Virus record (IMG/VR): IMGVR_UViG_3300034073_002798
Coordinates: 1-36,946 of that record
Strand: one strand, 5' to 3'
DNA length: 36,946 bases
Origin: a virus
Shown: positions 9,501 through 32,777 of the stretch, one piece after another
How positions within the stretch are numbered: position 1 is the first letter of the stretch
Layout of the letters: the number at the start of each line of letters is the position of its first letter
Notes under the pieces: model-generated
Told to the model about the DNA's origin: nothing
The model's input: only the letters and a program-made list of their open reading frames with translations
Database searches by the model: none
Position numbers and translations under genes: made by a program

Positions 9501-11715
9501 TCTTATCGCACAGGCCAAGGCCATTGTAGCCGCCCGCGACGCCATGGAGGAACTGACCGAGCGCGTGGACAGCGGCACGCTCAGCATGGAAGAACTGGAG
9601 CAAGCCACCTGGGCCGCCAACAACATGGCCGGCGTCTTGGGCGACGAGGAATTGGAAGGGCTGCGCGACGCCATCCAATCCGCCAAGGACGACATGCAGG
9701 ATTTCACCGACGACGCCAAGGAAGGGCTCCGCGACCTCCAGCAGGAATGGCTGGAGATTCAGGGCAACGACTTCGCCGCCGCGCAGATGGAGCAGCAACA
9801 GCAGCGCATCGAAATCGAAGAGCAACTGGCCGAGGCCCGCCGGCAGGGCAACCAAGAAGCCATCGACGCCCTACTCGAACAACTGGAAATCCTCGACAAA
9901 ATCCACGCCGACGAACTCCAGCGGATTCAGGATGAACAGGCCAGCGCCATCCGGGCCGCCACCACGGTAGAAGAGCTTCGCATCGCCTATGCCAAGGAAC
10001 GCGCCGACCTGGAGGCCGCCCTTCAGGCCGCCAAGGAAGCCGGCGACGATGAAGCCGTTAAAGCCATCCAGGCGCAAATCAAAGCCCTGGAAGGTGTGCG
10101 CCTGGAAACCGAACGCGGCATCCGCGCCGCCGAGTCAGCCACCGCCGCCGAGAAAGCCCGCCAACAGGCCATCGAAGCGCAGCAAAAGGCCGTGGCCGAC
10201 CTCACCGAGCGCCTAGGCTCGACTGAAGTATCGTGGCTCGACATTGCCGAAGCCGAACGGCAGGTCGCCGCCCTGGCCGGCAAGATTGGCGCCGAAGACC
10301 TGGACGGGCTGCGCGGTGCCATCGCCGACGCCAAACAGCGCATCGTCGACTTCGCCGAAGCCTCACGCCAATCCCTGGTCGGGCTCCAGCAGGAATGGAA
10401 CTCCCTGTATGGCGACGAGATTGCCAATACGCGCATCCAAGAAGCCGAAAAAATCCTCGACCTTGAGCGGAAGATTGCCGAGGCCAAGGCCGCCAACAAT
10501 CAACAGGCGGTAGATGAATACACCAAGCAGCTAGACCTTGCGCAAAAGCTATCGGATGCCCGTATCCGCATGGCGGAAAAGGAGCGGGACCTAGAATTCA
10601 TCCGCATGGCGCAAACGTCTCAGATGGAACTTAACCGGCTCAATGAGCGGAGCGAAGTTGAAAACCTGCTGATTGAGAAATCCATTGCCCTATACGATAC
10701 CCAGGTCAAGCTCAACAACGCCCGCGCCATCGGCGACAAAGAAGCCGTCTTTGCCTACAAGGACCAATTAGGCTGGCTGACCAAAATCTATGACAAGAAA
10801 ATCGAAGAAGCCGATCTAGAGGAACGCCGGGAAAAAGAACTCGAGCGCCTGGATGCCTGGGCGGACAAGCTCAACGCCGTCACGGTCAGCTACGACGACA
10901 TCGCCGCCGCGACGCAATACGCAGCCCGGGCCGCCAGGGTGTTGGGCGAAGAAGACTTGGCCACGCTAAACAGCGCCATCGACTCAGCGCGGAAAAAGCT
11001 CGACGACCTGGCCAACTCCGCCCAAGCCGGGCTCGACGCCCTAGAGCGCCAGTTATTGCAGCTCCAGGGCAAGCAAGAGGATATCCTGAAATTCGACTAT
11101 GACAAGGACCGCAAGAAGATAGAGGAAGACCTGCAAGCCGCAATTGCCGCTGGAAACAAGGATGCTGAGGATGCGTTGCGAAAGCAGTTAGATATCAGAA
11201 AGAAGATATTTGACACGGAGAGGGGGAGAATAAAAACCGAGATTGACGGGGAAAAAGAAAAGACGGATTTGGTTCTTGACCGGATTAGCGCAGAGGATGA
11301 GCAGTTAAAAAAGGAAGCCGAAGCCGTACAAAGCATGGAAGCTGCGCGCACAGAGGAAACCAAAAACCGCTTCAGAATGGAGGAGACTGCCGGCGCACAA
11401 TCCTTTTCCCTCGCAAAGCGCGAAACGGATGAGACAAAACAACAGACACTGGCAAAAACCGAGTCCGCTGATTACTCGCTCGAATCGGCGCAGCGCGAAA
11501 CGAAAGAGGCAGAAAAGCAAGCCGCCATAGAGCAGGGCGTGTTAGACCCCGTAACATCATCGCCTGTCGCCTCAACGACGCCAACTCAAAACACAAATGG
11601 ACCCACGAAAACAGTCGTGCTTAAGTTGGGCCGTGCTACGATAACCGCCGTGGACGATGGCGGAACCGAAGGATTTTTACGCGAACTGGAACGCTCCGGT
11701 TTAGTTTCGCAATAG
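6586..11715 (+). CDS. Tail tape measure protein
   Basis: 1709 aa. Tape measure proteins set siphophage tail length and help DNA cross the cell envelope. Residues about 100-235 hold the phage tape-measure domain (YDALAARVRLVADAQTG through WAEQAASMPVSLNQAITDL). Hydrophobic stretches at about 318-350 and 369-388 are candidate membrane-inserting segments. The rest is Ala/Glu/Gln-rich coiled coil. From about residue 1000 a unit of roughly 216-220 residues is repeated (see repeat entry). Codon use is strongly GCC-biased through most of the gene, but about 7680-7800 and 11130-11560 are visibly more AT-rich, suggesting mosaic recombination. Length and location before tail-tip genes support the call strongly. 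Confidence 0.9.
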   Translation: MANPELKIKISAETGDAVQGINAVDGSLDTLAKGSGAAEAGLKRAGDAARKAGDDANHAAGAFGSMQGALNKINAGLKPLTDLSNSINEIGQAAGTVLGPMKSMIDLGDEYDALAARVRLVADAQTGAAGAMRELEAIALRTHAPLADMGNLFLNLANAMKGTGRSTQEILGVTEALGNAIRVSGVNGQAASAALTQLGQAMSEGALRGDNFNSVAEQMPVVLDAIVAYTGYSRDSLREMAEQGKLTADIINASVNSMAKSWAEQAASMPVSLNQAITDLNTAWQSYLGQSQAVGTASQTLSSLLQTLAQNIDTVANAAITLGEYLIAAFAVKGALALRALAAEAIVAAGTMKTLGAAAETVGLSFSKIGAIITRVGWAAVAVEVFNLTKNLYELYKQNQEIAKLEQDAASSKERLAQKLREVSAATGIQITSMQQLIQLEKEGVIWQNQATGQWERVTEATREAAAAHLAAKENMAEAAKAAQGVKGELAKLEGQYDLLAATVDAVTGVALANADANVAAADAAAQQAEIMADLTGAYDDQVAAAEAATEAAEARTDAAWAQVEADEAEARAAQEKYDDLIEQYKKLTAAGIPLTQEQQKLKTETWAAAESAKAQAAASASQAAALGAVESASRVAALTLGDQSDQVNTLELAYVRAKGAAEAAAAQFEKYTQQQAEMARLSEELKRTQEELAAATDKTSLSYVDLKARESELIQEQALLNQSMEKNKITQEEVNAKVGEAKEKQAQYRDATNDSIKALNFEIDALGRKQKLSDQVFDIQQESLRQQADMAEKQGDVARATELRVQAQKQEADQLRVSAALEQQKAEKLALVAAETERLAMEDGKLTTEEQAAIAAAQDAAKAAELEAQGRSQAANAAEMQADAIEAAAAAAEEEKKAKEEAAEAAAEAAAQAARENTVYTTSIETWIARAGVAKDKIDEVAAAYKDLAQAARGAGRAFATPEEMESAINGLIAQAKAIVAARDAMEELTERVDSGTLSMEELEQATWAANNMAGVLGDEELEGLRDAIQSAKDDMQDFTDDAKEGLRDLQQEWLEIQGNDFAAAQMEQQQQRIEIEEQLAEARRQGNQEAIDALLEQLEILDKIHADELQRIQDEQASAIRAATTVEELRIAYAKERADLEAALQAAKEAGDDEAVKAIQAQIKALEGVRLETERGIRAAESATAAEKARQQAIEAQQKAVADLTERLGSTEVSWLDIAEAERQVAALAGKIGAEDLDGLRGAIADAKQRIVDFAEASRQSLVGLQQEWNSLYGDEIANTRIQEAEKILDLERKIAEAKAANNQQAVDEYTKQLDLAQKLSDARIRMAEKERDLEFIRMAQTSQMELNRLNERSEVENLLIEKSIALYDTQVKLNNARAIGDKEAVFAYKDQLGWLTKIYDKKIEEADLEERREKELERLDAWADKLNAVTVSYDDIAAATQYAARAARVLGEEDLATLNSAIDSARKKLDDLANSAQAGLDALERQLLQLQGKQEDILKFDYDKDRKKIEEDLQAAIAAGNKDAEDALRKQLDIRKKIFDTERGRIKTEIDGEKEKTDLVLDRISAEDEQLKKEAEAVQSMEAARTEETKNRFRMEETAGAQSFSLAKRETDETKQQTLAKTESADYSLESAQRETKEAEKQAAIEQGVLDPVTSSPVASTTPTQNTNGPTKTVVLKLGRATITAVDDGGTEGFLRELERSGLVSQ
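9583..11235 (+). repeat. Three diverged long repeats in the tape measure protein
   Basis: Copies begin at residues 1000 (SMEELEQATWAANNMAGVLG), 1216 (SWLDIAEAERQVAALAGKIG) and 1435 (SYDDIAAATQYAARAARVLG), each continuing through a DL(A/D/R)xLxxAIxxAKxx pattern and a QQEW or LQLQG segment. Each then carries a helical hairpin of the form AxxxGNxxAxxxxxxQL, at residues 1076, 1292 and 1512, with related extra copies at 1141 and 1369. Spacing is 216-220 residues. The repeats are protein-level; the DNA is too diverged to be a recent duplication. Confidence 0.7.
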
Positions 11716-11728
11716 AGAGGATTTACAC

Positions 11729-14700
11729 GTGGCAATCACAGTCGATGATTTAGTCTGGCGCAGCCCGGAGAACCGCACCCAGTTTGATGACGGTGGCGGT
11801 CGGATGACTACCACCGTCGTTCAGCCGGATACGCCAGGAGAGGTGTTCCCTATCATCTCCCGTCAGGACGGCAGCTATGGCCGGGTGCATCTCGCCAAAG
11901 TATTTGCCGCCGTGGATACCCCCGGAACCGAAACCCTGTATGGGGCAGGTGGCGTGCTACTCGAAAAGCCCACCAATCCAGGCGTGGACATTGGGCTGCT
12001 GGCCACCGGCACCGCCGGCGACCGGCGCAGCGATGCCCGCGCCAGGCTGGAGGCGTATTTGGTCAAGGGGCCTGAGACACGTCTGACACTGTTCGGTCAG
12101 CACTATGCAAATAGCCGCACCGTCGTAGCTTATCAGAAACCCGGCCAGCCCTTTCCCGCCATCGGTGACAGGCTGTTTTTCTACATTCCGAGTCCGGCGC
12201 ATGAGCAAGTGGTTAAGGTTGATGACCTGAGCGTGGAGCAACGCTCGTTTGACGACGGGAACGGAACTTACACGCTCGACATGGTGACTATGCAGATATT
12301 CCCGGCGCTGAACAAAGATTACGTCGGCGAGGGGCCGAGCCGGTCGTGGATTGTCACCAAGGACACCTACATCCTGACACCATCGCTGGCCGATGCCACG
12401 CGCATTTACGGCATGGCACAACTCACCGACCCAATCGCTGCCGATGAAACGGTAGCGACGGTTGACACCGTCATGGGCCGCGTATGCCCGGTCGCCGTGC
12501 GGGAAACCGCGCTCAGTCTACGGAATCCGGCTGGGGTCGTGCTGGAGGCGGCGACGGGCGGGCAAATGTCGATGTTTTTGCTCCGCACTTCTACCTGGAC
12601 CGGCACTTATTTTACGCCAACACCTATGCTTCCAGGGAGTGTACGAATCCAGGCCAGCTACAGGTATGCACAAGATAACGGTGATGGGACGTTCACTTTT
12701 TCAAATCTGGCGGCTACGTCGCTGACGGTCGATTATGAGACAGGTGCCATAACCGGGGTTGGCGTTAATACCACATGGGATACTCAGGACTGGTACGTTT
12801 ATTATACCCCCGCAGCTTTCCTCCCCGTCAGCGCGTACTCCAAGTCCCAGCCCATCACCATCGCCACCCGTGGCCTTGTATACGTCGATACTCTGTCCCC
12901 GCTCCCCGGCAAGCGCACCATCTCTGTCGATTACCTCGCGTTCGGGCAGTGGTATCAACTGACCGATGACGGCAACGGCGTACTGGCTGGCGCGGCTAGC
13001 ACCTACGGGCAGGGCACGATTGACTACACCACCGGGGCTGTCACGCTGACACTTGGCGCCATGCCGGACCTGGACAGTGAGGTTATATTCCGGTGGGGCA
13101 GCGAGGTGGGGTATCAGACGATAGCAACGGCGGACGTGGGCAGCCCATCGACCGTGTTCGATGCGCCCGACCTCACGCCAGGCAATGTGACGGCAACCTG
13201 GACCAGTGGCGGAGCGACCAAGACACTGGCCCTCACCGGCTGGACCTCTGGCGTTGGCACGGTAACAACCGCCAACGGCACGCTGACCGCTGACGTGGGA
13301 AAACAGAGCATCACCGTCGAGTTTGCTACCTCTGCGCTTCCTGACGTGCAGACTGACACAACGATTGACTATTTTACAGCACCTGAAAATAGGATTGGGC
13401 TCTCTCCTGGAGCTATATGGTCTAACGAGTGTGCTTTCAGCTTTGGGCAAGCCATCGTTCCCGGCTCGCTGGATACCAGCAGCTTCATCGTTTCAGCTAA
13501 CTCAACTCCGCACTATTCCATTCAGGACAACTTTTATTTGTTTGATGACGGGGCGGGCACGGTTAAGCTGGTCAACGCAGACCGCTCACTGGGCACATTC
13601 ATTCCCCTTAGTGTGCCTGTAGATGTCGGAACTATCGACTATGAAACAGGCGACATTTCCGTGAGTCTGGATGGCGCCACGTTAGTTACTGAGCTTAGGT
13701 ATGTCACAGCAGCAGGGACAACACTGCCAGTTGGCACACTCGTTGATATGTCGTTCATAAGCATTGCAACGGCGTCTGCGAGCGCAGTTGGTACGCCCAC
13801 CGCTGAACAGCAGACATCCCAAATCACCGCCCTGGTTGTCAACATCGACAACCAGGGCGGAATACTCCAGGAAAATACGCTTGGCCTCGCATTCGGTGCC
13901 CACACCTACTATGACCGGGGCGGCGTCCTATATCGCAGTATCGACGCGACCACCAACGCGGGCACGGCGGCCGGAACGGTTGACTACGACAACAATGCGG
14001 CAACTCTGACGAGCTGGGCAAATGGCGCCACAAAAACCGTTAGAAGCGGGTTGACAGGGCCGCAAGCTATCGAAATCAGCGCCTCTAAGTTCAGAAGCGC
14101 GGGCTCGCCGCTGCGCGAGGGTTCATGCTCGTTCCAGGCTGAGTATGCGACGGCCATTATCTCAGCCGCAGATAATGGTGCCGGAGGTATCCTTGTTGGC
14201 GATACCGCGATTGGTCTAGTTGACTACGGCACGGGCTCCATCGGTGTAGATTTTTCGCTTCCCGTTCAGCGCGAGACATTCTCAATCCGTTGGGTGGCGG
14301 CGTCTGGTGTAATGTATTCCGCTGGCTGCGATGCGACCGGGGAAATACAAGGGCAATACGCAAACGGAACGCTGTCAGCGAGCGGCGTTTTGTCAATGAC
14401 GATTAACACGCAACTTCCGATTCCTGATTCTATTCGCGTATCCGTCGAGCGGGCCTCTAACACCCTGCAAGCCCAAGGCGACCAAGATGGTGATTTTGGC
14501 ATCTATGGCACCGTGCGCCAGACAACCGGAATATTCTCTCTCACGTTCCCCGCGCCCATCCTGGCCGAATCCATCAAGTACTCCGCCGTGCAGCAAACAA
14601 CGGTGTCTCTCAACTCTGCCCTGATTGGCCTGGACCCGCTGCGCCTGCCCATCACCGGCACGGTTCCGATATTCCGGGATGGGGACTCGGTTCTGGTTCA

Positions 14701-19677: not shown

Positions 19678-19929
19678 TTAGCCATGGCTGCGCCTGACAA
19701 TCCATTCGAGCGCGTTGGCCATCCTGTCCATTGCCGAAATCTGACGGTTCAGAATGTCCTTGACCTGGTCAAACTCGGACTCACCTGGCACTTTCAGTGC
19801 GTCCCGTTCCTCGATCACATTCCCCCAGGCCAGCCGGGATGCGTGCGGGTGTTCGATGAGAGCGCGAACGGCGTCTTCACCCATCTTGCCGATATTGAAG
19901 GTGATAGTTAAGTACCCGTTGTCAATCAT
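19678..19929 (-). CDS. Hypothetical phage protein
   Basis: 83 aa. Begins MIDNGYLTITF and shares only the MID start with the Trp-rich paralogues upstream; it lacks their Trp pattern. The C-terminal half (SEFDQVKDILNRQISAMDRMANALEWIV) is helical, possibly dimerising. Its start overlaps the preceding stop by 8 nt (ATGATTGA), the junction used throughout the array. It is the last gene of the long leftward operon before the recombinase. Function unknown. Confidence 0.6.
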   Translation of the reverse strand: MIDNGYLTITFNIGKMGEDAVRALIEHPHASRLAWGNVIEERDALKVPGESEFDQVKDILNRQISAMDRMANALEWIVRRSHG

Positions 19930-20116
19930 GCGGGCGCTCCCGCATGGACATGGCCGGCGCTTCGTTCAGTGCGTCAATCTCTTCCCATCTATCGTCTGAC
20001 GCCCAAACTCCGCGTGCTTCGGCCCAATCTGGAATCTCTTCATACCAGCACCATACGCCGTCAGCGTCCTTAGCGTAGTAACGTGCCCACTCCGGGGCTT
20101 TGCTCCAGTCAATCAT
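19922..20116 (-). CDS. Trp-rich MIDW paralogue 6 of the tandem array
   Basis: 64 aa: [20 protein letters not shown], then VWCWYEEIPDWAE and a C-terminal MRERPHD. This is the family core (DWxxAPEWARYxAxDxxGxWxWY) and the family end (RERPxD). Short soluble proteins opening DWSKAPE are widespread in tailed phages but, as far as I know, uncharacterised. The stop codon lies inside the ATGATTGA junction shared with the next gene. Confidence 0.7.
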   Translation of the reverse strand: MIDWSKAPEWARYYAKDADGVWCWYEEIPDWAEARGVWASDDRWEEIDALNEAPAMSMRERPHD

Positions 20117-20360
20117 TCTTAGGTCTCCACTGTAGTGAAAATCGCCAATCAGCTATTGCCCCACTGGGCAGTCTCTCGCATCGACTCTCTTTCGTTGCCC
20201 ACAATTCTGTTTCTGCGTCAGCACTAGGCTTAGTCGCGTACATCCACATTTCACCGTTGGAGTCCTGGGCTATGAACTTTGCCCACTCAGGTAACTTGTC
20301 CCATCGAATCTTCATAACCCGTTCGATGGCAACGGTGCGCGGAGTTTCTATGTCAGTCAT
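20109..20360 (-). CDS. Trp-rich paralogue 5, diverged N-terminus
   Basis: 83 aa. Carries a 15-residue N-terminal addition (MTDIETPRTVAIERV) before the family core KIRWDKLPEWAKFIAQDSNG and MWMYATKP, and ends WRFSLQWRPKND. The start at 20360 is preferred over an internal Met16 because ATGACTGA overlaps the previous stop by 8 nt exactly as at the other junctions. The most diverged member: Arg-Trp-Asp replaces Asp-Trp-Ser. Confidence 0.65.
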   Translation of the reverse strand: MTDIETPRTVAIERVMKIRWDKLPEWAKFIAQDSNGEMWMYATKPSADAETELWATKESRCERLPSGAIADWRFSLQWRPKND

Positions 20361-20586
20361 GGCCGGCGCCTTCTCCGAATTTCACCGGCCTGGGCCGCCT
20401 CTGGAGTGATTCTGCCCAGTCGCCAGTGAAAAATTCTGCGTGAAAATCTTCGTACTTCCCGTAAACATCTACCCATGTTCCGCTGATTTCATTCGGGTCT
20501 GGCTCATGAGAAAACCAAGCCCATAGGCCAGACTTGTCCATTGCCACGTACCGTGCCCACTCAGGGGCTGCGTTCCAGTCAATCAT
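20353..20586 (-). CDS. Trp-rich MIDW paralogue 4
   Basis: 77 aa. MIDWNAAPEWARYVAMDKSG, LWAWFSHEPDPNEISGTWVDVYG, then DWAESLQRRPRPVKFGEGAGHD. The middle loop is unlike those of its neighbours, while start, aromatic core and the SLQxRP segment are conserved. It ends eight residues beyond the usual RP-x-D position. Junctions at both ends are 8-nt start/stop overlaps. Confidence 0.7.
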   Translation of the reverse strand: MIDWNAAPEWARYVAMDKSGLWAWFSHEPDPNEISGTWVDVYGKYEDFHAEFFTGDWAESLQRRPRPVKFGEGAGHD

Positions 20587-20785
20587 CGGATGGGCGCTCC
20601 TGAAGTGATGCTTTCCAATCCGCTACCGGTGGTGCTGACGCGCTGCGCACCTTATGTATCACTAGAGATGTCCAGCAATTCGAGTCACGCAATAAGAACG
20701 GCTTTTCCTCGTACCAAAACCAGTATCCGGCTTCGTCCATCGCAGCCCATCGCGCCCACTCGGGGGAATGTGACCAATCAACCAT
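20579..20785 (-). CDS. Trp-rich MVDW paralogue 3
   Basis: 68 aa from the ATG at 20785. A longer reading to 20842 is rejected because it breaks the 8-nt overlap rule and lacks family sequence. MVDWSHSPEWARWAAMDEAG, YWFWYEEKPFLL, then VADWKASLQERPSDD at the end. The start overlaps the preceding stop as ATGGTTGA. Confidence 0.7.
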   Translation of the reverse strand: MVDWSHSPEWARWAAMDEAGYWFWYEEKPFLLRDSNCWTSLVIHKVRSASAPPVADWKASLQERPSDD

Positions 20786-21191
20786 ATACAACCCTTTCTC
20801 TTTTTGGCGTACCGTTGAAAAAACACAAGTGTTTTTTAGCATCTTCTAATGTTGTAAAAGTATCAACGCAATGTATAGCAAACGCGCTATTGATATGAGC
20901 ATCGACCCACAGCCAACGAAATAATAAGTGCTTCTGTTGAATTACATAAAATATTGCGCCGTCGCAGCGGGTTCTCTCAATAATTCTAGTTCTCATCTTA
21001 GGGCGCTCCTGTAGCGATTCAGACCAATGGCCGCAGTAAGGCTCTGCCGTAAACTGCTTTGATGGCCATGCAGCAGTTGCCGCCCAGATAGGCCCATCCA
21101 CTACAGGTTGACCACCGTGCCACCACCAACGCTCGTCACTGTCCATCGCCGCGTATCGTGCCCATTTAGGGGCGGTGTTCCAGTCAATCAT
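20778..21191 (-). CDS. Trp-rich MIDW paralogue 2 fused to a second domain
   Basis: 138 aa from the ATG at 21191, in an 8-nt overlap with the previous stop. Residues 1-65 are the family unit: MIDWNTAPKWARYAAMDSDE, RWWWHGGQP, then HWSESLQERP. Where relatives read RPxD-stop, this one reads RPKMRTR and continues for 73 residues (IIERTRCDGAIFYVIQQKH, FTTLEDAKKHLCFFNGT). The extension is more AT-rich and resembles another small phage family with a DG-x-x-F-Y-V-I-Q-Q-x-H core. A separate gene starting at the Met near 20996 is the alternative. Confidence 0.65.
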   Translation of the reverse strand: MIDWNTAPKWARYAAMDSDERWWWHGGQPVVDGPIWAATAAWPSKQFTAEPYCGHWSESLQERPKMRTRIIERTRCDGAIFYVIQQKHLLFRWLWVDAHINSAFAIHCVDTFTTLEDAKKHLCFFNGTPKRERVVYG

Positions 21192-21381
21192 GTGGTCGCT
21201 CCTGTCGTGAGCCCTCCCAAACGCCCAAGAATTCGTGTCCAAGCGACGGGGCGTATTTACCACCTGTCAATAACCACTCATAGTTTCCTAATTCTGGTTT
21301 GCGGGAGTACCAGAACCAGATTCCGTCACTGTCCATCGCTGCGTATTGTGCCCACCTCGGTGCCTTGCTCCAGTCAATCAT
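21184..21381 (-). CDS. Trp-rich MIDW paralogue 1 (first of the array)
   Basis: 65 aa: [36 protein letters not shown], ending WEGSRQERPHD. It overlaps the upstream triple-HTH gene by 4 nt (ATGA) and the next paralogue by 8 nt. Together with paralogue 6 it is close to the minimal family form. Trp/Tyr-rich, small and soluble; possibly a binding protein against a host factor, which is speculation. Confidence 0.7.
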   Translation of the reverse strand: MIDWSKAPRWAQYAAMDSDGIWFWYSRKPELGNYEWLLTGGKYAPSLGHEFLGVWEGSRQERPHD

Positions 21382-21788
21382 GCTGCCCTCCGATACTTGT
21401 GCCGTGCGTTTTTGACCGATGACACGGTTCGGCCGAGTTTCATGGCCAGGTCTTTCAGTGTGTCTTTGTTCTTCCTGACAATGGCTATTTCGGCTGGCGT
21501 GTAGTGTTTGCGGGGTGAAGGGATTTTCTGCCGCACGACATTTCTGACTGTTCGGGTGCAGAGCCCGAGTCGCATGGCAATTTGGTAGAGCCGTTCGCCT
21601 TTTTCTGCGCGTTGGATCATTTCCGCGCGCTCGGCGTCGGTGACGAATCGTCGGGCGGGGGTGAGCCCGGTGCGCGCTTTGTAGCGTCGGATGGATTTGA
21701 CGGTGCGACCTAATTTTGCGGCCAATGCGTCGAGGGTGCCGGTCCAGGCTTTGATGATTTGCCTTTCGGCGTGGGTGTACTGTTTCAC
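21378..21788 (-). CDS. Triple helix-turn-helix DNA-binding protein
   Basis: 136 aa from the GTG at 21788, preceded by GGAGG 4 nt upstream. The frame stays open to 22907, but that part is a shadow of dnaN. Three HTH modules: residues about 4-40 ([34 protein letters not shown]), 47-88 ([35 protein letters not shown]) and 95-132 ([36 protein letters not shown]). Modules 1 and 3 are near repeats of each other. Likely a phage transcription regulator or DNA-organising protein. Overlaps the DfrB-like stop by 4 nt. Confidence 0.7.
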
Positions 21789-21994
21789 GGTGCCTCCGGT
21801 GCGCGCTCGAGGGCGGCGACGGGATAGATTTGCACCGAGCCTGGATGGCTGTCGGATTCGATGGCGTAGCCCTCGGGTGTGAGGTGGGTGGAATAAAACC
21901 CGACGATGCGGCCGGCCCAGGCTGCGCCGGATTTCTTGCGTACCCGGTCGCCCGGTTGGAAGGTTTGCCAGAGTGGGATGAGTTCGGGTTGCAT
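21785..21994 (-). CDS. dfrB: Type II dihydrofolate reductase homologue (R67/DfrB-like)
   Basis: 69 aa. Residues 15-64 follow the plasmid enzyme R67 DHFR almost residue for residue as I recall it: [13 protein letters not shown]-x-[27 protein letters not shown]. The active-site VQIY is at 54-57 (R67 66-69), Lys20 equals R67 Lys32, and Trp26 equals Trp38. R67 is a homotetramer of SH3-like barrels with one central active site; it reduces dihydrofolate with NADPH and is naturally insensitive to trimethoprim. The disordered N-terminus of R67 is shortened here. GAGG precedes ATG; the gene starts 9 nt after the dnaN stop. Activity is likely but not shown; a non-catalytic SH3-barrel role is possible. 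Confidence 0.85.
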
Positions 21995-22003
21995 GGGGGC
22001 GCC

Positions 22004-23101
22004 TCACAGTGCCATCGGCATCAGCAAGATAAAACGGCGCGAGGGTTCGCCGTCGTGCAGGGTGATTTTGGTTTTGGCGTCGAAGAAGCGCATTTCGATG
22101 GTGTCGCCGCCGTAGGCTGACAGGGCATCGATGAGGTAGCGTGAACTGAGCCCCAGTTGGGCGTCGGGGGCGTCGGATTCGACATCGATTTCCTCTAGGC
22201 CCTTTTCCTGGTTGGTGGTGGCGGCTTCGAGTGTGATTTTCCCGGGCGTGTGCGACATGGCGATGCCGGCGTGGAGGGTGTTGCGGTCTAGCACGCCGGA
22301 CTGGAGGCGGTTGGCGCAGTCGTGCAGCTCCTGGCGGCTGACTTTCACAAGGTATTCGGGTTCGCCCTCGATGAGGCGTTGGATGTTCGGGTAGCGACCT
22401 TCGATGTGTGATGTGCGCAAACGCCAGGTGTTGGCAATGAAATCGGAGTGCGCGCGGCTGAGTTCGATGCTGATCGATTCCTGCGAGTCGGGGTCGAGGA
22501 GTGAAAGCAGCTCTTTGACTGCGACGGTGGGGTAAATCGCTTCCCATTCGCCGATGATTTCCGGCTCGGTGGCGGCGTGGCAGCGGTGGCCGTCGGCGGC
22601 CGCGACGCGCAGTCCGGTTTGCGTGGCAAGGAAGTGGACGCCGTTCAGGTAAAAGCGCGTGTCGGCCTTGCCCTGGGCGGCCTGCACAAATCGGAGCATG
22701 CTGGCCAGTTGCCACTGTTCGATCTGGGCGTGGTGTTTCACTTCGAGCCCCTCGGATAGGGGGTAGTCGGCGGTGGGCAGGGTGGGCAGTCGGTAGCGGC
22801 CTCGGCCGGCTTTGATGTGGAGCTTGTCGTCGGCGTGGGTCAGTTCGACTTCGCCGCTGGGCAGGGTGGCCGCTAAGCTGGCCAACTTGGCGGCGTCGAC
22901 CAGGCATTCTCCGGCCTCGGCGACCTGAGCCGGGGCGGTCTGGGTCAGGCTGAGGCTGCCTTGCCCACCGGTGATTTCGAGGCTATCCCCCTGGGCTGAC
23001 AGCATGACGCTTTTATAGATCGCGACGGTGCCGCCTCTGGCTGCGCTTTCGGCGCGCTTGGCGAGCCTGGCTAAGGTGGGTGTGGGTAGGGTGAGTTTCA
23101 T
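22004..23101 (-). CDS. dnaN: DNA polymerase III sliding clamp (beta subunit)
   Basis: 365 aa, full length for a beta clamp of three repeated domains. Seen: VEKxx-like opening domain, the second-domain block KADTRFYLNGVHFLATQTGLRVAAADGHRC, and the C-terminal FILLMPMAL, close to the usual MPMR(L) end. The clamp encircles DNA and tethers polymerases, ligase and mismatch factors. No clamp loader or polymerase is visible in the window, so it probably uses the host loader. Overlaps the small Cys protein by 4 nt and leads into the DfrB-like gene. Confidence 0.9.
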   Translation of the reverse strand: MKLTLPTPTLARLAKRAESAARGGTVAIYKSVMLSAQGDSLEITGGQGSLSLTQTAPAQVAEAGECLVDAAKLASLAATLPSGEVELTHADDKLHIKAGRGRYRLPTLPTADYPLSEGLEVKHHAQIEQWQLASMLRFVQAAQGKADTRFYLNGVHFLATQTGLRVAAADGHRCHAATEPEIIGEWEAIYPTVAVKELLSLLDPDSQESISIELSRAHSDFIANTWRLRTSHIEGRYPNIQRLIEGEPEYLVKVSRQELHDCANRLQSGVLDRNTLHAGIAMSHTPGKITLEAATTNQEKGLEEIDVESDAPDAQLGLSSRYLIDALSAYGGDTIEMRFFDAKTKITLHDGEPSRRFILLMPMAL

Positions 23102-23759: not shown

Positions 23760-24692
23760 TCACCAATCTGCACTTCTCAGGATTGTTATTTTCCTTCCGT
23801 CTTTGTGCGCCTTCATCGCTGCGATAGCACGGTGATAAACGTCGCTCTTGAAGTTCGCCGAGTTTTCCTGGCTCCCTCTAGTTCCTGATGACCGTAGCAG
23901 CCAATCGCGGAGTATTCTTGCTTGTTGTATTTCGCTATCAACAACAAAGATTTCTGGATAAAACTCTGATGCTTTATCTTTATCAATTTCGTAATACTCC
24001 ATTGCAGCATAGGCGACCTGTATTTTCCCAACGCCTTTGTCTCGCTTGTGATTCTTCGCGACAAATAAAGCAGCTTCATGATGTACAGAAAAAAACTCTC
24101 TTGCGTCGTCTGGACTGGCCCTTTTTGTTGGGCCTCGTTTTAGATTGAACGGCACCGCGCTGAGCTGCGCTATTAGTTTGTTGTGCAGCATGTCTTCCAC
24201 TAATTGGACTCTATCATCTAAAGTTCGCGGAACTCCTGTATCAAGATATTCTCTAACGTCATCCCTGGCTCCGGTTTCTACGCGAACAATAACCGCATTT
24301 GAAAAATCAATTTTTAGTTCAGAAATTGCTTGTAGCCTGTGCTGCCCGTCTATTAGTCGGCCTTTATCTGAAAAAATAACTGGTTGCGGGTGGTCGTCCC
24401 TCCATTCTCCGTTTTTTATCTGGTGTTTCATGTATTCTACAGACGCTCTTCTTTGTCGCCTGTTCTTTATGTTCATTTCGAGCATTTTTGACGCTGTTTC
24501 GGAATCCACTAAAACACGCACTAGAGCCGGCATCCTTACGTCTATTTTGCTGAACAGTACCAGTGGGATTACTGCGCTTAGCCTATCTAAATTGCTTTGC
24601 TGAACTACCATATTTATTTCTCGATTTGAACTCAAATAAACAGATCGATCGTTTGCTTTGTTTCTTTTCGCGGTTTCTGTAAACATAGTCAT
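23760..24692 (-). CDS. DGQHR/ParB-like domain phage protein
   Basis: 310 aa. Residues 112-120 read GRLIDGQHRL, the DGQHR signature shared by ParB-N/sulfiredoxin-fold proteins and DndB-type proteins. The preceding KNRRQRRASVEYMKHQIKNG and the following REYLDTGVPRTLDDRVQLVED are typical of phage members. Partner or substrate unknown; the fold suggests nucleotide or DNA binding. Clearly more AT-rich than the dnaN region, so probably acquired separately. Start overlaps the previous stop by 4 nt. Confidence 0.65.
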   Translation of the reverse strand: MTMFTETAKRNKANDRSVYLSSNREINMVVQQSNLDRLSAVIPLVLFSKIDVRMPALVRVLVDSETASKMLEMNIKNRRQRRASVEYMKHQIKNGEWRDDHPQPVIFSDKGRLIDGQHRLQAISELKIDFSNAVIVRVETGARDDVREYLDTGVPRTLDDRVQLVEDMLHNKLIAQLSAVPFNLKRGPTKRASPDDAREFFSVHHEAALFVAKNHKRDKGVGKIQVAYAAMEYYEIDKDKASEFYPEIFVVDSEIQQARILRDWLLRSSGTRGSQENSANFKSDVYHRAIAAMKAHKDGRKITILRSADW

Positions 24693-25330: not shown

Positions 25331-25632
25331 GGTTTTGGTCTCATTTCAGGTTCAACAAAACACCAGGTGCACCCGGGCACCCAGTCCGGTACGCCGGGAA
25401 AGATGGGCACCGGGCCGCAGTTGGCGCAGGTGGTGATAGACGTGTAGTGCGCGGGCACGATGCCGAGCCTACGGTTAGCAATCTGACGGACGTTTTCAGC
25501 GATATCGGCGATCTGCGAATCAGGCAGCCCTACCACGTCGGCGGCTACGTCAGAGGGAAGCCCGTATTTGTCGGCCAGTGCCGCGATGGGGTCGTCTAGC
25601 AACAGACCGAGCAACACGTCAGTCTGTGACAT
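25327..25632 (-). CDS. Small protein with C-terminal zinc-ribbon-like CxxC pair
   Basis: 101 aa. N-terminal helical part (LLDDPIAALADKYGLPSDVAA, ADIAENVRQIANRR) and a C-terminal four-Cys set CANC...CTWC with Pro-rich spacing. Overlaps the VRR-NUC stop by 14 nt and the next gene by 4 nt. Similar small zinc-ribbon proteins accompany phage nuclease genes, but I cannot assign a role. Confidence 0.6.
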   Translation of the reverse strand: MSQTDVLLGLLLDDPIAALADKYGLPSDVAADVVGLPDSQIADIAENVRQIANRRLGIVPAHYTSITTCANCGPVPIFPGVPDWVPGCTWCFVEPEMRPKP

Positions 25633-25918
25633 GCGGAGCCTCCACCCGGTCTAGCAACTCAGCGGCTTCGGCCTTGCTGTAAATCACCTCGGCCACACAG
25701 CCGGCTTCGCGTAGCTGCTCGATACGATGGGTCTGGATGGGCTTGGGCTTCTCACCGGGGCGCTTCGCCTCGATGAACACCGACGGCCGACCCCGCTTGT
25801 GGGCTTGGATGTCGGGCAGGCCGGCCAGGGTGAAGGCGTTGCCGTGGTTCTTCCACGCCAGCCAGCCACGCTCGGCTAGTAGCTTGAGGATGCCGCGCAC
25901 GATGGCTGCCTCGCTCAT
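25619..25918 (-). CDS. VRR-NUC domain nuclease
   Basis: 99 aa from the ATG at 25918 in an ATGA overlap with the helicase stop; a longer reading to 26164 is a shadow of the helicase. Catalytic PD-(D/E)xK pattern visible: GLPDIQAHKRGRPSVFIEAK, with Asp and the E-x-K pair in expected order. Stand-alone VRR-NUC proteins are structure-specific nucleases or Holliday-junction resolvase-like enzymes in phages. Lying beside an SF1 helicase and a YqaJ exonuclease, it probably resolves recombination or replication intermediates. Confidence 0.8.
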   Translation of the reverse strand: MSEAAIVRGILKLLAERGWLAWKNHGNAFTLAGLPDIQAHKRGRPSVFIEAKRPGEKPKPIQTHRIEQLREAGCVAEVIYSKAEAAELLDRVEAPHVTD

Positions 25919-27516
25919 AGCGGAACCGACGGGCCAGCCGACCCACAGAGGGTGAGGCGTTGCCGGGCGCGGGTCAGGCCGACGTAAAACAGCCGGTACA
26001 CGGACGGGGACCGACGGCTCCATTCCTGATACCCGGATCGCGATACGTCGGGAAACAGGTAGACGGAATCGGCCTCGGCGCCTTTTAGGGAATGGATGGT
26101 GCCAACCGTAACCTGCGGCGTCTCGGTCAGGGCGGGGATTCCGCCACGGTCGAGCAGCTTCCATAGAAAATCGGCCTGGCCGCGCTTGGCCTGCGGCAAC
26201 TTGTCAAGCCACCACTTCACGTCGGCCTTGGCGGCAGCCTGCAAGGCTTCGGGCTCGAACCAGCCGCGCATCCGGTCTACCAGCTCGCGCGGCGACAACA
26301 GTTCCTCTATCGCCTCGACGGCCTTCTTGGCGCCGCGCTGGAAGATTCCAGCCGCCGGTAACGGATGGGTCCATGCCTTCAGGTCATCCAGCGTCCAGAA
26401 GCGGCTATCGTCGCCCCACACCGCTTTGTTCGGGCGCAGGAAGGCCAACATGCGCTCGGCAGTAGATAGGCCCTTGCGCGGCGCCAGCGGGTTCCAGGCG
26501 CCTTGCTGGGGCCGCCAGGGGTTGTGATAGGGAATGCCCGCTGCGCGTAGCGCCTTGATGGTGTCGCCCAGGAAGAATCCACACGAGGCTTGCACCATGA
26601 CGCTTCGCCCTTCGCTCAGGTCTTCCTCGATGGCTTCCAGCAACAGGGACGGGCGCTTGAACGTGGCCGGCAGGCGTCGGCATTCCCCCTCTTCATCCCG
26701 GGGGGCGTAGGAAAACTCACGGTAGCCCGGAATCTGTTTGATCCAATCCGAGGCGGTTTGATGCACGGCGCGGGGCAGGCGCCAGGACTGACTCAGCACC
26801 TTGACGGCTTCCGATGGCTGGCCATCGCGGAAGAGGGCGCCAGGGTCGGAGCCGCGCCATTCGTACAAACATTGGTAGGGGTCGCCGACGAGGACGAGTT
26901 GCTGAACACCCCGCGACCACTTGTCCACTAGGTCCATCTCCAACCGGGAGAAGTCCTGCCCCTCGTCCACAAACATCACCAGCGGCGAGGCGGGATGGAT
27001 GGGCACCTCTGTGATGGCCCGCTCTAGCAGGTCGGTGAAGTCGCTCACGTCGGCCTCGCGCTTCCAGGCTTCGTAGCGATTGGCAAAAGCTGTGACGTGC
27101 GATGGCCAGGCTTCACGCGGCCGGCGCATGGCCCGCAGCAGGTGGTATTCATTGTGGGCCTTATCGCCATCCGTCTGCCCTGGCAGCCCATCGGGGCGGC
27201 CGTCCATATCATCTGACCCGCCCGACCCGCTCAGGGCATACTGGGGGTCGTCTTTCATGTGGGCGTTCCAGTCTTTGACCTTCGTCTCGGCCAGTTCGGG
27301 CCGATTGAGTGCGCGATAGGCCATGGCGTGCAGGGTTCCGACCTGCTCCTTGGGCAGGTCCACCCGACCCCCCGCTTCCCGTGCGGCGGTTTTGGTGAGA
27401 CTGCACACTACGACTTTACCGGGGCCGAACTTATCGGCGGCACGCTGAACCTGGCGCGAAATACTGGTGGTCTTACCCGTTCCAGGCGGTCCAATCAGAG
27501 TCCATACCTTGTCCAT
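25915..27516 (-). CDS. Superfamily 1 (UvrD/Rep-like) DNA helicase
   Basis: 533 aa from the ATG at 27516, preceded by AGGAGG; an upstream extension to 27612 lacks protein-like sequence. Walker A GPPGTGKTT at 9-17; motif II FVDEGQDF; motif III LVGDPYQCLYEWRG; motif IV QSWRLP; motif V TIHSLKGAEADSVYL; motif VI YVGLTRARQRL. A 3'-5' ATP-dependent translocase of the UvrD type. Shorter than host UvrD (about 720), with reduced accessory domains. Works most likely in phage recombination or replication with the neighbouring SNF2 helicase and nucleases. Confidence 0.85.
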   Translation of the reverse strand: MDKVWTLIGPPGTGKTTSISRQVQRAADKFGPGKVVVCSLTKTAAREAGGRVDLPKEQVGTLHAMAYRALNRPELAETKVKDWNAHMKDDPQYALSGSGGSDDMDGRPDGLPGQTDGDKAHNEYHLLRAMRRPREAWPSHVTAFANRYEAWKREADVSDFTDLLERAITEVPIHPASPLVMFVDEGQDFSRLEMDLVDKWSRGVQQLVLVGDPYQCLYEWRGSDPGALFRDGQPSEAVKVLSQSWRLPRAVHQTASDWIKQIPGYREFSYAPRDEEGECRRLPATFKRPSLLLEAIEEDLSEGRSVMVQASCGFFLGDTIKALRAAGIPYHNPWRPQQGAWNPLAPRKGLSTAERMLAFLRPNKAVWGDDSRFWTLDDLKAWTHPLPAAGIFQRGAKKAVEAIEELLSPRELVDRMRGWFEPEALQAAAKADVKWWLDKLPQAKRGQADFLWKLLDRGGIPALTETPQVTVGTIHSLKGAEADSVYLFPDVSRSGYQEWSRRSPSVYRLFYVGLTRARQRLTLCGSAGPSVPL

Positions 27517-27532
27517 CGTGCCGCCTCCTGGC

Positions 27533-28261
27533 TTAGTTGAAGGGGATGGGGTCGTCGGTGAAGTGATGCTCGCCTGCGGATGCCGTGACCATCTGCTGGA
27601 AGGCGCTGGCATAGTTGGCGAACTTCTCCGCGTCGGCGCCGTCGATCAGGCCGCCGCTCTCGAACGTGGCCACCGAGTAGGCGATACCGTCCGAAGTCTT
27701 CACTTTCGATAGGCCGACCTTGGTGATGACCTGATGCAACCGCGTGCCCCGTGCCGCCAGGCGTAGGAAATACTGGCGGGCGTTCTTGAGGCTGGTAGCC
27801 GGCAGGGTGACGATCACAGGCAGCGCCGATTCGGGCAGCACCATGTACAGCCGCTTGCTGGCCTTGCAGGCTTGCCCCCTGCCATTGGCATCGCTGCCGA
27901 ACTGGGCATGGGGGCAGACGGAGCAGGCGCCTCCGGGTTCACCCACACCGGAGAAGCCGTCGGGCGAGTAGCAATCGGGGGGGCTGCCACCGCCGTTGGT
28001 TTCCATGCTGGAGGACCAGTAGGCGCGGGCGTCGTGGTGATAGACGATGACACCCTCGATGGACTTGGATGCCTCGGTGCCGTCCACGGTGGGGATCTCC
28101 CAGGCCGTTCCGCCACCCGCGGGAACCTTCACCCGGTCCAGGTCGCCCGGCTTGATGCCGCCAGGGCCGGCTACATCGCGCAGCAGGACCAGGGCCTCGG
28201 CACCTTGTTGGGCTACGAAATAGGTTGATGGGGTCTTAGTCATTGCGGTTTGAGTGCTCAT
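27533..28261 (-). CDS. Putative ssDNA-binding protein with Cys cluster
   Basis: 242 aa. Middle region has a Cys set (DCYSP, CSVCPHAQFG, ACKASKRLYMV) likely binding zinc. This is followed by VIVTLPATSLKNARQYFLRL and a C-terminus DDPIPFN, which resembles the acidic (D/E)-x-P-F end of single-strand binding proteins. The family appears in phage replication operons between helicase and nuclease genes. ssDNA binding is inferred from the tail and context; a RecT/Erf-like annealing role alongside the upstream exonuclease is an alternative. ATGA overlap with SNF2. Confidence 0.6.
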   Translation of the reverse strand: MSTQTAMTKTPSTYFVAQQGAEALVLLRDVAGPGGIKPGDLDRVKVPAGGGTAWEIPTVDGTEASKSIEGVIVYHHDARAYWSSSMETNGGGSPPDCYSPDGFSGVGEPGGACSVCPHAQFGSDANGRGQACKASKRLYMVLPESALPVIVTLPATSLKNARQYFLRLAARGTRLHQVITKVGLSKVKTSDGIAYSVATFESGGLIDGADAEKFANYASAFQQMVTASAGEHHFTDDPIPFN

Positions 28262-29568
28262 GTCTTTGAGTCCTTGAGATGTGAAAGTACGTATTCGATG
28301 ACGTTGCGTTTATCGCGGAGTGCGCGATAGACCTTCTCATCCACCGAGCCCGACACAATCAGGTGGTGGTAGAAGCAGGTCCGGTCCTGACCCGGACGGT
28401 GAGTCCGGGCCAGAGCCTGCTCGTATTGCGCGAGTGAGAAGCCGAGGGACCAGAAGACGGCGCGGCACGAGCGGGTAAGGTCTACGCCTTCAGCGCCGGC
28501 GCCGATTTGCACGGCCAGCACGGGCGCCTTGCACGCCTGCCAGTCGGCCAGTTGATTACGCCGCCCGGAGAGCTCCAGGCAGCCATGAGGCGCAACCCGG
28601 GCAATGGCATCCAGGTCGCGATGGAAGCGGGCGAACACCACAAGCGGTTCGTCTGCGGGTAAGCCGTCGAGAATTTCCGCCAGGGCCTCGGCCTTGGCGT
28701 CGTGCAAGGTTGCAATGTTGCCGCCGTCGTCCTGCAAGAAGCCGCTGGTGATTTGTTGCAGCCGTAGCAGCTTCACCAGGGCATTGGCCGCGGTGACCAC
28801 ACCTGCGCCAACCTCGGCAATCAGGTCCACTTCCAAGCGGCGGTAGGTGCGCATCACACCGGGGGGCAGGGTCAGCGGAATCTCAGCGTGGACCGCTGGG
28901 GGAAGGGTCAGCACGTCGCGGCTCGCCGCATAGCGGCGGCTGTCGAACTTGATGGCGAAGTCTTCCGTGTTCTTGTAGCCGATGATCTGGCGGTTCTCGT
29001 AACCGCCCATCACCGCATACTGATTACGGAAGCGCAGGAAATTAGTCCCGAACACCTGGGGGTCGATGGCGCGATACAGGCCGTATGCGTCCATCGGTCC
29101 CTGGGGCAGGGGCGTTCCGGTCAAGGCCAGTACGCGGGGGATGCGGGCGGAAAGGCGTGCGCAAAAGCGCGATGCCTTACCGCCCGGGCTTTTTAGCTTG
29201 TGGGCCTCATCCAGAATCAACAGGTCGAAGGGCTGCTTCAGCAACCAGCCGGCCATCGGTTCGCGCCAGGCCGACTCGTAGTTGATGACCCAGACGCGCG
29301 GACGCTGAGCGTCAGCGCGGGCGCGTTCCAGCTTGCTCGCTACGCTGCCGGTATCCAGCACCATGGCAACGTCTTCTCCTGCCTGGTGCGACCACACCCG
29401 GCACACAGCCCGCGGGGCGATGACCAGGGCCAGCTTGGCGCCAGACTCCAGGAACACGGCTAGGGCGGCGCGGGTCTTGCCCGTGCCCATGCCCATGTCC
29501 CACAGCACCCGCCGCTTGGCGAGCGCTGTAGAAACCGCCTCCCGCTGATGGGGCCACAGTTCAAGCAT
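28258..29568 (-). CDS. SNF2-family DEAD-box-like helicase/translocase
   Basis: 436 aa, compact phage SNF2 form. Motif I GMGTGKTRAALA near residue 27; motif II LLILDEAHKLKS; motif III ALTGTPLPQG; C-terminal lobe IGAGAEGVDLTRSCRAVFW and QALARTHRPGQDRTCFYHHL, ending DEKVYRALRDKRNVIEYV. ATP-dependent dsDNA translocase. The 8-nt start overlap (ATGCTTGA) with the exonuclease gene implies coupled translation. Such genes are usual partners of exonuclease and primase genes in temperate phages. Confidence 0.85.
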   Translation of the reverse strand: MLELWPHQREAVSTALAKRRVLWDMGMGTGKTRAALAVFLESGAKLALVIAPRAVCRVWSHQAGEDVAMVLDTGSVASKLERARADAQRPRVWVINYESAWREPMAGWLLKQPFDLLILDEAHKLKSPGGKASRFCARLSARIPRVLALTGTPLPQGPMDAYGLYRAIDPQVFGTNFLRFRNQYAVMGGYENRQIIGYKNTEDFAIKFDSRRYAASRDVLTLPPAVHAEIPLTLPPGVMRTYRRLEVDLIAEVGAGVVTAANALVKLLRLQQITSGFLQDDGGNIATLHDAKAEALAEILDGLPADEPLVVFARFHRDLDAIARVAPHGCLELSGRRNQLADWQACKAPVLAVQIGAGAEGVDLTRSCRAVFWSLGFSLAQYEQALARTHRPGQDRTCFYHHLIVSGSVDEKVYRALRDKRNVIEYVLSHLKDSKT

Positions 29569-30469
29569 GGCTCTTGCCCAAGCGGAAGACGCGGCTACTG
29601 GTTTCCGTGCTGTACTCGTCGTACAGCTCGGGGTGGTCGGCCCGCAGCCTGGACGTATCCAGGCGGCGTGTTGTCTGCGGCTTCCAGGTGGCCAGGGGGC
29701 GGCCGTCTGGCGTAATCAGACCCTCGCCGTCGGCGATGGTGGCCTTCAGCAGGTCTTCCAGGGCGGACTTCTGAAGTCCCAGCGCGTCGAGCTGGGCCTT
29801 GAGTTCGCGCAGCGCATCCGCAGCCGCTAACGCGGCGGCGTCGGCCACGCTCATGCCATCGGCATGGGTGATGTGCTTCAGGTACTCCACCGCATCGGCC
29901 AGGTCGATGGGCGGGGGCGGTGTGCGCGTCTCGACGTGGCGCCAGAAGGCGGCCTCACGCTCGATCAGGTAGTCGATGCGCGATGGGTTGCGCTCTATGT
30001 AATAGGTCTTGAGCTGTTGCCCGCCCACCAGGGCCGCGACGTGGAAGCCCTCAAAGCCAGTCAGAGCGAGGTAGTGATCAACCTGTGCTTGGTAGTAGGG
30101 CGGCACGCCATCGGTCCAGTCAGCGGCCGAGCGCAGGCCGATGGCCTTAATCTCCAGGCCCTGTCGCTCGCCCTGAATGCGGCGGTCGATATGGCCGACC
30201 ATGAAGGGATGATCTGGATGGCGCAGGCTGCGATTGTCGCGCCGCACCTTGAGCCCAGTTCGCTTAGCGAACTCGGCTGCAATGGGCGCCTCAAGGATAT
30301 TTCCCCACTGCACGGCTTCTTTATCGTCAAGGCTTGCGGCCTGAACGCGGCCGGTCTTTTCCAGAAAAAGCTGAGACGGGCTCTTCCACGGCGATAGCCC
30401 GAGGACTGTGGCGGCGTCGCTGCCGCCAAGGCCCTTGGACCTGGCCTTATGCTGTGATTGGGTCAACAT
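29561..30469 (-). CDS. YqaJ/lambda-exonuclease-family recombinase nuclease
   Basis: 302 aa from the ATG at 30469, with GGAGGG 8 nt upstream; an in-frame start at 30529 lies inside the previous gene. GGSDAATVLGLSPWKSP at the N-terminus and the catalytic set WGNILEAPIAAEFA, GHIDR, LEIKA (E, D, E-x-K) identify the family. It degrades one strand of dsDNA ends 5'-3' to make tails for annealing. C-terminal region helical (ADALRELKAQLDALGLQKSALE). Drives recombination-dependent replication, with the ssDNA-binding candidate as possible partner. Confidence 0.85.
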   Translation of the reverse strand: MLTQSQHKARSKGLGGSDAATVLGLSPWKSPSQLFLEKTGRVQAASLDDKEAVQWGNILEAPIAAEFAKRTGLKVRRDNRSLRHPDHPFMVGHIDRRIQGERQGLEIKAIGLRSAADWTDGVPPYYQAQVDHYLALTGFEGFHVAALVGGQQLKTYYIERNPSRIDYLIEREAAFWRHVETRTPPPPIDLADAVEYLKHITHADGMSVADAAALAAADALRELKAQLDALGLQKSALEDLLKATIADGEGLITPDGRPLATWKPQTTRRLDTSRLRADHPELYDEYSTETSSRVFRLGKSHA

Positions 30470-30471
30470 GG

Positions 30472-30768
30472 CTAGGCCCTCCACCTGCTGCGCCCACAGC
30501 AGTCGTCTTCCATCCAGTCGGGTGCGCAATCCGGTTCATCTGGCGTGTAGTTGTCCACGTCCCTTTCTGCGATGCGCTTGATGGCATCGAGAATCACGTT
30601 CCATTCCCTGGGTGTGCATTCTTCGTAGAGGTCGGACGCCCTAAGCAAATCGCTCAGTTCATCCATGCGACGCTCAACAGCCAGTTCCCTGGCCGCATCC
30701 CGGTCGATTTCCCGCTGATAGCGGGCCAGGTCGCGTTCAACAGCGTCGAATTGGGGCTGGTATCTCAT
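30472..30768 (-). CDS. Small helical phage protein
   Basis: 98 aa from the ATG at 30768, which overlaps the previous stop (ATGA). Highly charged coil (FDAVERDLARYQREIDRDAA, ERRMDELSDLLRASD), then EWNVILDAIKRIAERDVDN and a C-terminal DDCCGRSRWRA. Probably dimeric. Second gene of the leftward operon; no function assignable. Confidence 0.6.
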   Translation of the reverse strand: MRYQPQFDAVERDLARYQREIDRDAARELAVERRMDELSDLLRASDLYEECTPREWNVILDAIKRIAERDVDNYTPDEPDCAPDWMEDDCCGRSRWRA

Positions 30769-31220: not shown

Positions 31221-31721
31221 CTAGACTGGGGTGGATTGGCGTAAGGCGTTGAGCCGCGCTTCGGCCTCTTGCCAAGGTAGACGGCGCCCGTGATGGCGCA
31301 TCGTATCTAGCGCATGGATGGCGGCATCGACGGAGAGCAATTGATTTTCGACCATCGCGCGTAATAGCCCAATCGTCCCCATGACGGCAACGCCCTCTTG
31401 GTCGGCAATAGCCCGAAGGCTGGCGTCGCCCGTTAGCAGCGTGCAGGCCTCCTGCTTGGCCAAGGCCAAGGCCAGGTAGTCGTTATGGCTGGGCTTGGAA
31501 CCATGCTTGGCGGGAAGTCGCTGGGCGTACTCCACAAAATCGCCCGCTACTTCCATGACTTGCAAGCCCATGCGCTCTAGGCCCGGCGTGCCGGGCTCGA
31601 TTTCTTCATAGTACAGGATGTCGGGGATGCCGATTTGCACGGGAAGCCGGAAGAGCGTTTCAAGTAACGCCCCGGCTTCCATGTCAATCAATATATTGGC
31701 ATCACTGATGAGCAGCCGCAT
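31221..31721 (-). CDS. PIN-domain protein (putative RNase toxin)
   Basis: 166 aa. Opens RLLISDANILIDMEAG. The four acidic residues of the PIN site can be placed at Asp7, Glu40 (LYYEE), Asp81 (SHNDYLALA) and Asp99 (LLTGDASLRAIA). PIN toxins such as VapC cleave RNA in a metal-dependent way. The C-terminus (ENQLLSVDAAIHALDTMR, GRRLPWQEAEARLNALR) resembles the tail of PIN proteins paired with XRE-ImmA genes. Overlaps the partner gene by 20 nt and lacks a strong ribosome binding site, so is translationally coupled. Confidence 0.8.
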   Translation of the reverse strand: MRLLISDANILIDMEAGALLETLFRLPVQIGIPDILYYEEIEPGTPGLERMGLQVMEVAGDFVEYAQRLPAKHGSKPSHNDYLALALAKQEACTLLTGDASLRAIADQEGVAVMGTIGLLRAMVENQLLSVDAAIHALDTMRHHGRRLPWQEAEARLNALRQSTPV

Positions 31722-32766: not shown

Positions 32767-32777
32767 GACACCCACTC

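Follow-up and report, generated by a model that had tools for sequence, protein, structure and literature searches.

A predicted stand-alone R67/DfrB-type dihydrofolate reductase in the replication operon of a temperate phage

The dfrB gene, its operon and its phage

The window, by which we mean the whole 36,946-nt stretch of viral DNA analysed here, contains a small gene on its minus strand (dfrB, 21785–21994) whose 69-aa product is a stand-alone protein of the R67/DfrB type. The product matches the Pfam DHFR_2 family (PF06442) above its cut-off of 25 (112.1 bits, E = 1.1e-32) and aligns with the R67 crystal chains by phmmer (95 bits, E = 1e-26). In the alignment with R67, K20 corresponds to K32, W26 to the dimer-dimer interface residue W38, and V54-Q55-I56-Y57 to the VQIY motif at positions 66–69, all of them kept. 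The initial annotation, which had called the product R67/DfrB-like and equated Lys20, Gln55, Ile56 and Tyr57 with R67 Lys32, Gln67, Ile68 and Tyr69, is thus borne out.

We modeled the monomer with AlphaFold2 (mean pLDDT 86.8) and compared it with known structures using Foldseek. The model has the SH3-like five-strand barrel of R67, matching seven R67 structures, including 2GQV and 1VIE, at 0.8 Å (77–80% identity, E ~3e-8); after these, the PDB offers nothing closer than remote SH3-like/KOW folds (E ~0.02). Judged by the alignment, the catalytic and tetramer-interface positions are kept, with Phe33 at the equivalent of interface residue W45. The 78-aa length and conserved N-terminal extension of the named clinical DfrBs are absent, and the protein scores 118.8 bits against the NCBIfam model trim_DfrB (NF000331), below the cut-off of 137 and too low for a clinical DfrB allele. 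Alignment and model together indicate that this temperate phage has a genuine R67/DfrB-type enzyme in stand-alone form, and the low dN/dS against the nearest bacterial gene (~0.11) indicates purifying selection on it. If expressed, the protein is very likely an active, trimethoprim-insensitive reductase; we base this prediction on its 85% core identity to a bacterial DfrB and on ten tested homologues (62–95% identical to characterized DfrBs), all of which, according to PMC9774602, conferred trimethoprim resistance and most of which were active. A reading of dfrB as a defence gene was rejected, as PADLOC gave no match.

The genes described here around dfrB run in the same direction, on the minus strand. 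The gene for the DNA polymerase III beta sliding clamp (dnaN, 22004–23101), a real clamp with three DNA_pol3_beta domains and a TIGR00663 score of 160.9 bits, ends 9 nt before the dfrB ATG. On the other side, a homeodomain-like HTH gene (HTH_23, 21378–21788) begins with a GTG that overlaps the dfrB TGA as GTGA (4 nt), and its Shine-Dalgarno sequence (GGAGG) lies within the dfrB 3′ end. Farther upstream are genes for a ParB-like/phrog_5931 protein (23760–24692) and, by domain match, a VRR-NUC/Holliday-junction-type nuclease (25619–26164), a UvrD/SF1-type DNA helicase (25915–27612), a SNF2/DEAD-type helicase (phrog_62, 28258–29568) and a RecE-like recombination exonuclease (YqaJ, 29561–30529). 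The placement described at the outset, 9 nt behind dnaN and overlapping an HTH gene in a phage replication operon, therefore stands. From this layout dfrB is predicted to be translationally coupled to both dnaN and the HTH gene, which we count in favor of the function proposed below.

The window also codes for tail proteins, a CI-like repressor, an antirepressor and a serine-recombinase integrase, indicating a temperate tailed phage. The contig is probably incomplete, since it has no terminal repeat and no head or packaging genes were recognized among the ORFs scanned. A search with dnaN found no phage relatives and a DNA-level search no close phage. The SNF2 helicase gave a single 40% match (L153), with dfrB absent from the stretch of it that was examined, and only remote matches in 399 Burkholderiales genomes.

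Two other regions of the minus strand stand out. Directly behind the HTH gene, at 19922–21381, about six short paralogous ORFs are arrayed in tandem; their products, of some 56–87 aa, share the motif M(I/V)DW..(A/S)P.WAR..A.D..G.W.W(Y/F), and the DNA shows 77-nt repeats of 61–77% identity, an unusual gene amplification for a phage early region. At 31221–32775, a PIN/DUF3368 ORF overlaps an HTH plus Peptidase_M78 (IrrE-like) regulator; this pair matches PADLOC RmrA (146 bits) and, below its cut-off, an antitoxin-type NCBIfam model, and is possibly of toxin-antitoxin or immunity type.

Family, phylogenetic position and divergence from cassettes

The DfrB family proved larger than previously reported. 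By tblastn we found 26 phage records (best identity 66%) and 98 plasmid records (best DfrB4, 81.5% over 54 aa), and in a profile scan of IMG/VR a relative turned up on at least 232 viral contigs, of which the best 80 were retained. A scan using a bacterial DfrB gave 56 contigs, and genomes gave 50 loci. These counts include near-duplicates, as 83 phage domain sequences form 66 clusters at 90%. With starts guessed by Shine-Dalgarno score, 42 of 92 phage homologues are stand-alone (≤90 aa), while 38 of the 92 lie in proteins of >130 aa with unrelated partners. In L055 (9200–10183) and L135 (7503–8183, below the Pfam cut-off), for example, the DfrB domain is C-terminal to a Lar restriction-alleviation domain. 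The equivalent of K32 is present in 81/82 distinct phage cores and that of W38 in 82/82, neither having been used for finding them; VQIY is almost invariant as well and was part of the search pattern. When phage and phage-like dfrB genes were compared in 335 close pairs, the median dN/dS was 0.24.

The family search and tree that the initial annotation had proposed place the window protein with the bacterial and cassette DfrBs. In the protein tree (137 sequences), it joins 24 other rows of this clade with support of 100/94, and the phage sequences fall outside. When the 162-nt core was used for a DNA tree, the window gene fell into the half formed by bacterial and cassette genes (96/96), close to the base of that half and beside the gene of a proteobacterial MAG (L103); the detail of this tree is unreliable, because a few long-branch members of the phage group (L002, L028 and L134) also fall in that half. 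In smaller sets, with too few columns, a position beside the bacterial clade and one inside it are both accepted (AU p = 0.33–0.66). Of the phage DfrBs found here, the window gene is the one nearest to the clinical clade, making it the natural candidate for testing a phage origin. Where DfrB came from and what it first did are both posed as questions in the literature (PMC9835603, PMC11662351).

Three further observations concern the wider family. A separate, tight DfrB-like clade (MGDYAAKKGRASWRGKIVGWYRTDLT; L144–L151, L022 and L023) occurs on chromosomes and plasmids of Rhizobiales and Sphingomonadales, on a long branch with support of 100/100, and some of its members are already annotated as DfrB-family resistance genes. 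An 8.9-kb Polynucleobacter MAG stretch (L128) carries two different DfrB-domain ORFs on opposite strands (7811–8165, plus; 8424–8748 in minus-strand coordinates). BFVD matches include many small phage proteins that are weakly SH3-like (E ~0.01), among them a DUF2158 protein, and these possibly represent a phage ancestor family of DfrB.

A further reading is that the phage recently captured a clinical integron cassette, and the closest protein matches are indeed bacterial and cassette DfrBs (78–82% over 54–59 aa). However, the nearest gene, that of L103, is 85% identical in amino acids and 75% in nucleotides over the core, with a dN of 0.14 and a dS of ~1.2, and synonymous sites are near or past saturation against other genes. 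Behind dfrB, a crude scan of 300 nt, which missed one of six true cassettes, found no attC-like core-site pair, and neither an integron integrase (intI) nor resistance genes occur among the annotated window ORFs, in keeping with the earlier statement that the locus has no integron or cassette signature. The dfrB GC3 (0.73) is also close to those of dnaN, uvrD, SNF2 and recE in the same operon (0.76–0.79). Because nucleotide identity is 75% at best and synonymous sites are near saturation, we reject a recent transfer from a clinical cassette, the counter-case named in the initial annotation, as extremely improbable; the divergence from cassette genes appears to be old.

Chromosomal dfrB is sporadic in Burkholderiales, occurring in one of 399 sampled genomes, and that one was the center of the search. 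Across 22 bacterial loci no conserved neighbors are shared, the flanks consisting of ordinary chromosomal genes with a few integrase or transposase genes. Such a sporadic, neighbor-less distribution is consistent with the gene having arrived horizontally more than once, and is compatible with a source among mobile elements, of which phages are one kind. As phage diversity surrounds the clade in the unrooted tree, a phage-to-bacterium direction is plausible. In its fullest form, phages would be the native DfrB reservoir, the enzyme having evolved or been maintained as their FolA replacement for dTMP synthesis in replication, and the Burkholderiales and integron clade known for trimethoprim resistance would be a lineage escaped from such phages; we offer this tentatively, as a real possibility that falls short of probable. 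The phage reservoir suggested at the outset gains from the phage records and viral contigs counted above, but the idea is already in the literature (PMC9835603 and virome surveys). A dfrB match in a virome can therefore stem from an old phage gene and need not signal a mobilized resistance cassette.

Thymidylate synthesis and the function of phage DfrB

Several phage loci connect DfrB to thymidylate synthesis. On IMG/VR contig L087, a DNA ligase gene is followed on one strand by dfrB, DUF7352, dCTP deaminase (PF22769, E = 8e-23), an NTP pyrophosphohydrolase (phrog_4856), a small ORF and thyA (thymidylate synthase, PF00303, E = 6e-100), with dfrB to thyA spanning 9875–13029. The DHFR_2 match covers residues 58–108 of a 158-aa protein, and thyA lies 1.8 kb behind it. 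By its gene content, this operon encodes a predicted dCTP to dUMP to dTMP route in which DfrB is placed for folate recycling, in FolA's stead. In L052 (4180–4788), one protein combines a DfrB domain with a pyrophosphatase (phrog_5658, E = 4e-58). Sinorhizobium phage phiM9 has a second thymidylate synthase gene, td.2, on the dfrB strand; the two would be ~1 kb apart once the ends of the record are connected, assuming circular permutation. Neighbors of stand-alone phage dfrB genes include DNA polymerase (L002, MW202697), Sak4 (L002), and helicase-primase and UvsX (phiM9), and DNA ligase is another gene seen next to phage dfrBs.

Across dfrB phage records, ThyA was found in 5/50 compared to 0/38 control viral contigs unmatched for lifestyle (Fisher P = 0.054), leaving 45/50 without it. 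FolA-type DHFR and ThyX were each found in 0/50; the former fits a non-homologous replacement by DfrB. There was no enrichment of dUTPase (3/44 dfrB phages and 2/32 controls). The thyA operon, the pyrophosphatase fusion, the ThyA count and the lack of FolA in these records support a thymidylate role for some DfrBs. The initial proposal that the gene serves thymidylate supply is thus supported for some relatives, but it meets the low ThyA count and a window phage whose 36.9-kb, probably incomplete contig lacks thyA, thyX and dUTPase.

We consider it reasonably likely that the window DfrB's job in the phage is to regenerate tetrahydrofolate. Four copies would most likely assemble around one central pore, where the VQIY strands and Lys20 would position NADPH and dihydrofolate so that hydride passes directly between them, and this single-pore architecture would not be inhibited by trimethoprim. 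Produced together with the sliding clamp and the recombination proteins, DfrB would most likely regenerate tetrahydrofolate from the dihydrofolate that thymidylate synthase, presumably host ThyA in this case, releases during phage-driven DNA synthesis. We infer the tetramer, the activity, the trimethoprim insensitivity and, above all, this physiological role; the role stays an extrapolation to the window phage because it has no thyA and many phage DfrBs tail unrelated proteins.

That last point suggests a different function. Lemay-St-Denis et al. (2023; PMC9835603) suggest that these domains, whose function is unknown, may have DHFR activity only adventitiously; accordingly, the DfrB domain could be a general SH3-like binding or oligomerization module of phage early proteins, reduction a by-product of the tetrameric pore, and the window gene would do something else during replication or the takeover of the host. 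In 38 of 92 homologues DfrB is part of a longer, unrelated protein, with a Lar domain in two that were inspected, and this fits such a module, and it is the favored reading where DfrB is appended to unrelated accessory proteins. The diversity of dfrB neighbors, HNH endonucleases being the commonest, the lack of ThyA in most carriers and the fact that a native function is known for no DfrB-H protein point the same way. However, the joint near-invariance of K32, W38 and VQIY fits the constraint of a folate/NADPH pore better than a plain SH3 fold, L087 and L052 point to dTMP synthesis, and ordinary DHFR was found in none of the 50 dfrB phages; for the window gene we find the module rather doubtful. 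Alternatively, dfrB could be a lysogenic-conversion gene, expressed from the prophage to help the host when it meets natural antifolates or grows slowly, instead of serving phage replication. The phage is temperate, with its CI-like repressor and integrase, and dfrB is known outside phages in free-living Burkholderiales (PMC11662351), yet in the window it is locked into an early operon between dnaN and the HTH gene whereas chromosomal bacterial dfrB appears solitary, and we regard lysogenic conversion as unlikely.

Returning to tetrahydrofolate regeneration, the L087 operon and the FolA-less dfrB phages lead to the hypothesis that DfrB originally served to recycle tetrahydrofolate while phages made thymidylate, and that its fold makes it insensitive to trimethoprim only by accident.

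Comparison with known DfrB systems

Phage DfrB as such is already known from two characterized homologues and scattered virome matches (listed in PMC7265639, PMC10580818 and PMC12466917). Relative to the searchable open-access literature, three things appear to be new: that the window gene sits beside the clinical clade, how large the phage family is, and the links to a thyA operon and a pyrophosphatase. Of the two phage-derived homologues studied by Lemay-St-Denis et al., DfrB-H4 (Vibrio phage 1.030.O), one of several distant homologues that did so, gave trimethoprim resistance in Escherichia coli and DfrB-H3 (Pseudomonas phage PS-1) did not, apparently for want of soluble expression (PMC9835603). 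Both have the active site of the window DfrB, but they are domains of 167- and 218-aa proteins with 59–62% identity to it, whereas the window protein is stand-alone and belongs to the cassette clade. The DfrBs of IMG/VR L002, MW202697.1 and phiM9 are small, stand-alone and in replication modules, as in the window, but are 54–68% identical over the aligned length, come from other phage lineages and, in the protein tree, do not belong to the cassette clade.

With R67 DHFR/DfrB1 (1VIE, 2RK1) and DfrB2, 3, 4, 9 and 10 of plasmids and integrons, the window DfrB shares family, fold (0.8 Å, 78%), the K32, W38 and VQIY positions and a similar size. It differs from R67 in its shorter and different N-terminus and in Phe33, and from the clinical enzymes in its trim_DfrB score and in a gene that sits inside a phage operon without an attC. 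Loss of the 20-residue N-terminal part leaves DfrB1 active, and interface Trp45 is reported to be substitutable (PMC9835603). The Burkholderiales chromosomal dfrBs (Variovorax, Rhodoferax, Ramlibacter; PMC11662351) are nearest in the tree, mostly with 81–85% core identity; unlike the window's, they encode 78-aa proteins and are single genes without conserved neighbors. Finally, the FolA-type phage DHFR (DHFR_1) has a fold unrelated to DfrB but shares the proposed role, the regeneration of tetrahydrofolate for dTMP synthesis, and in phages folA frequently accompanies thyA (PMC7725336); relative to FolA, DfrB enzymes are slow (PMC11662351).
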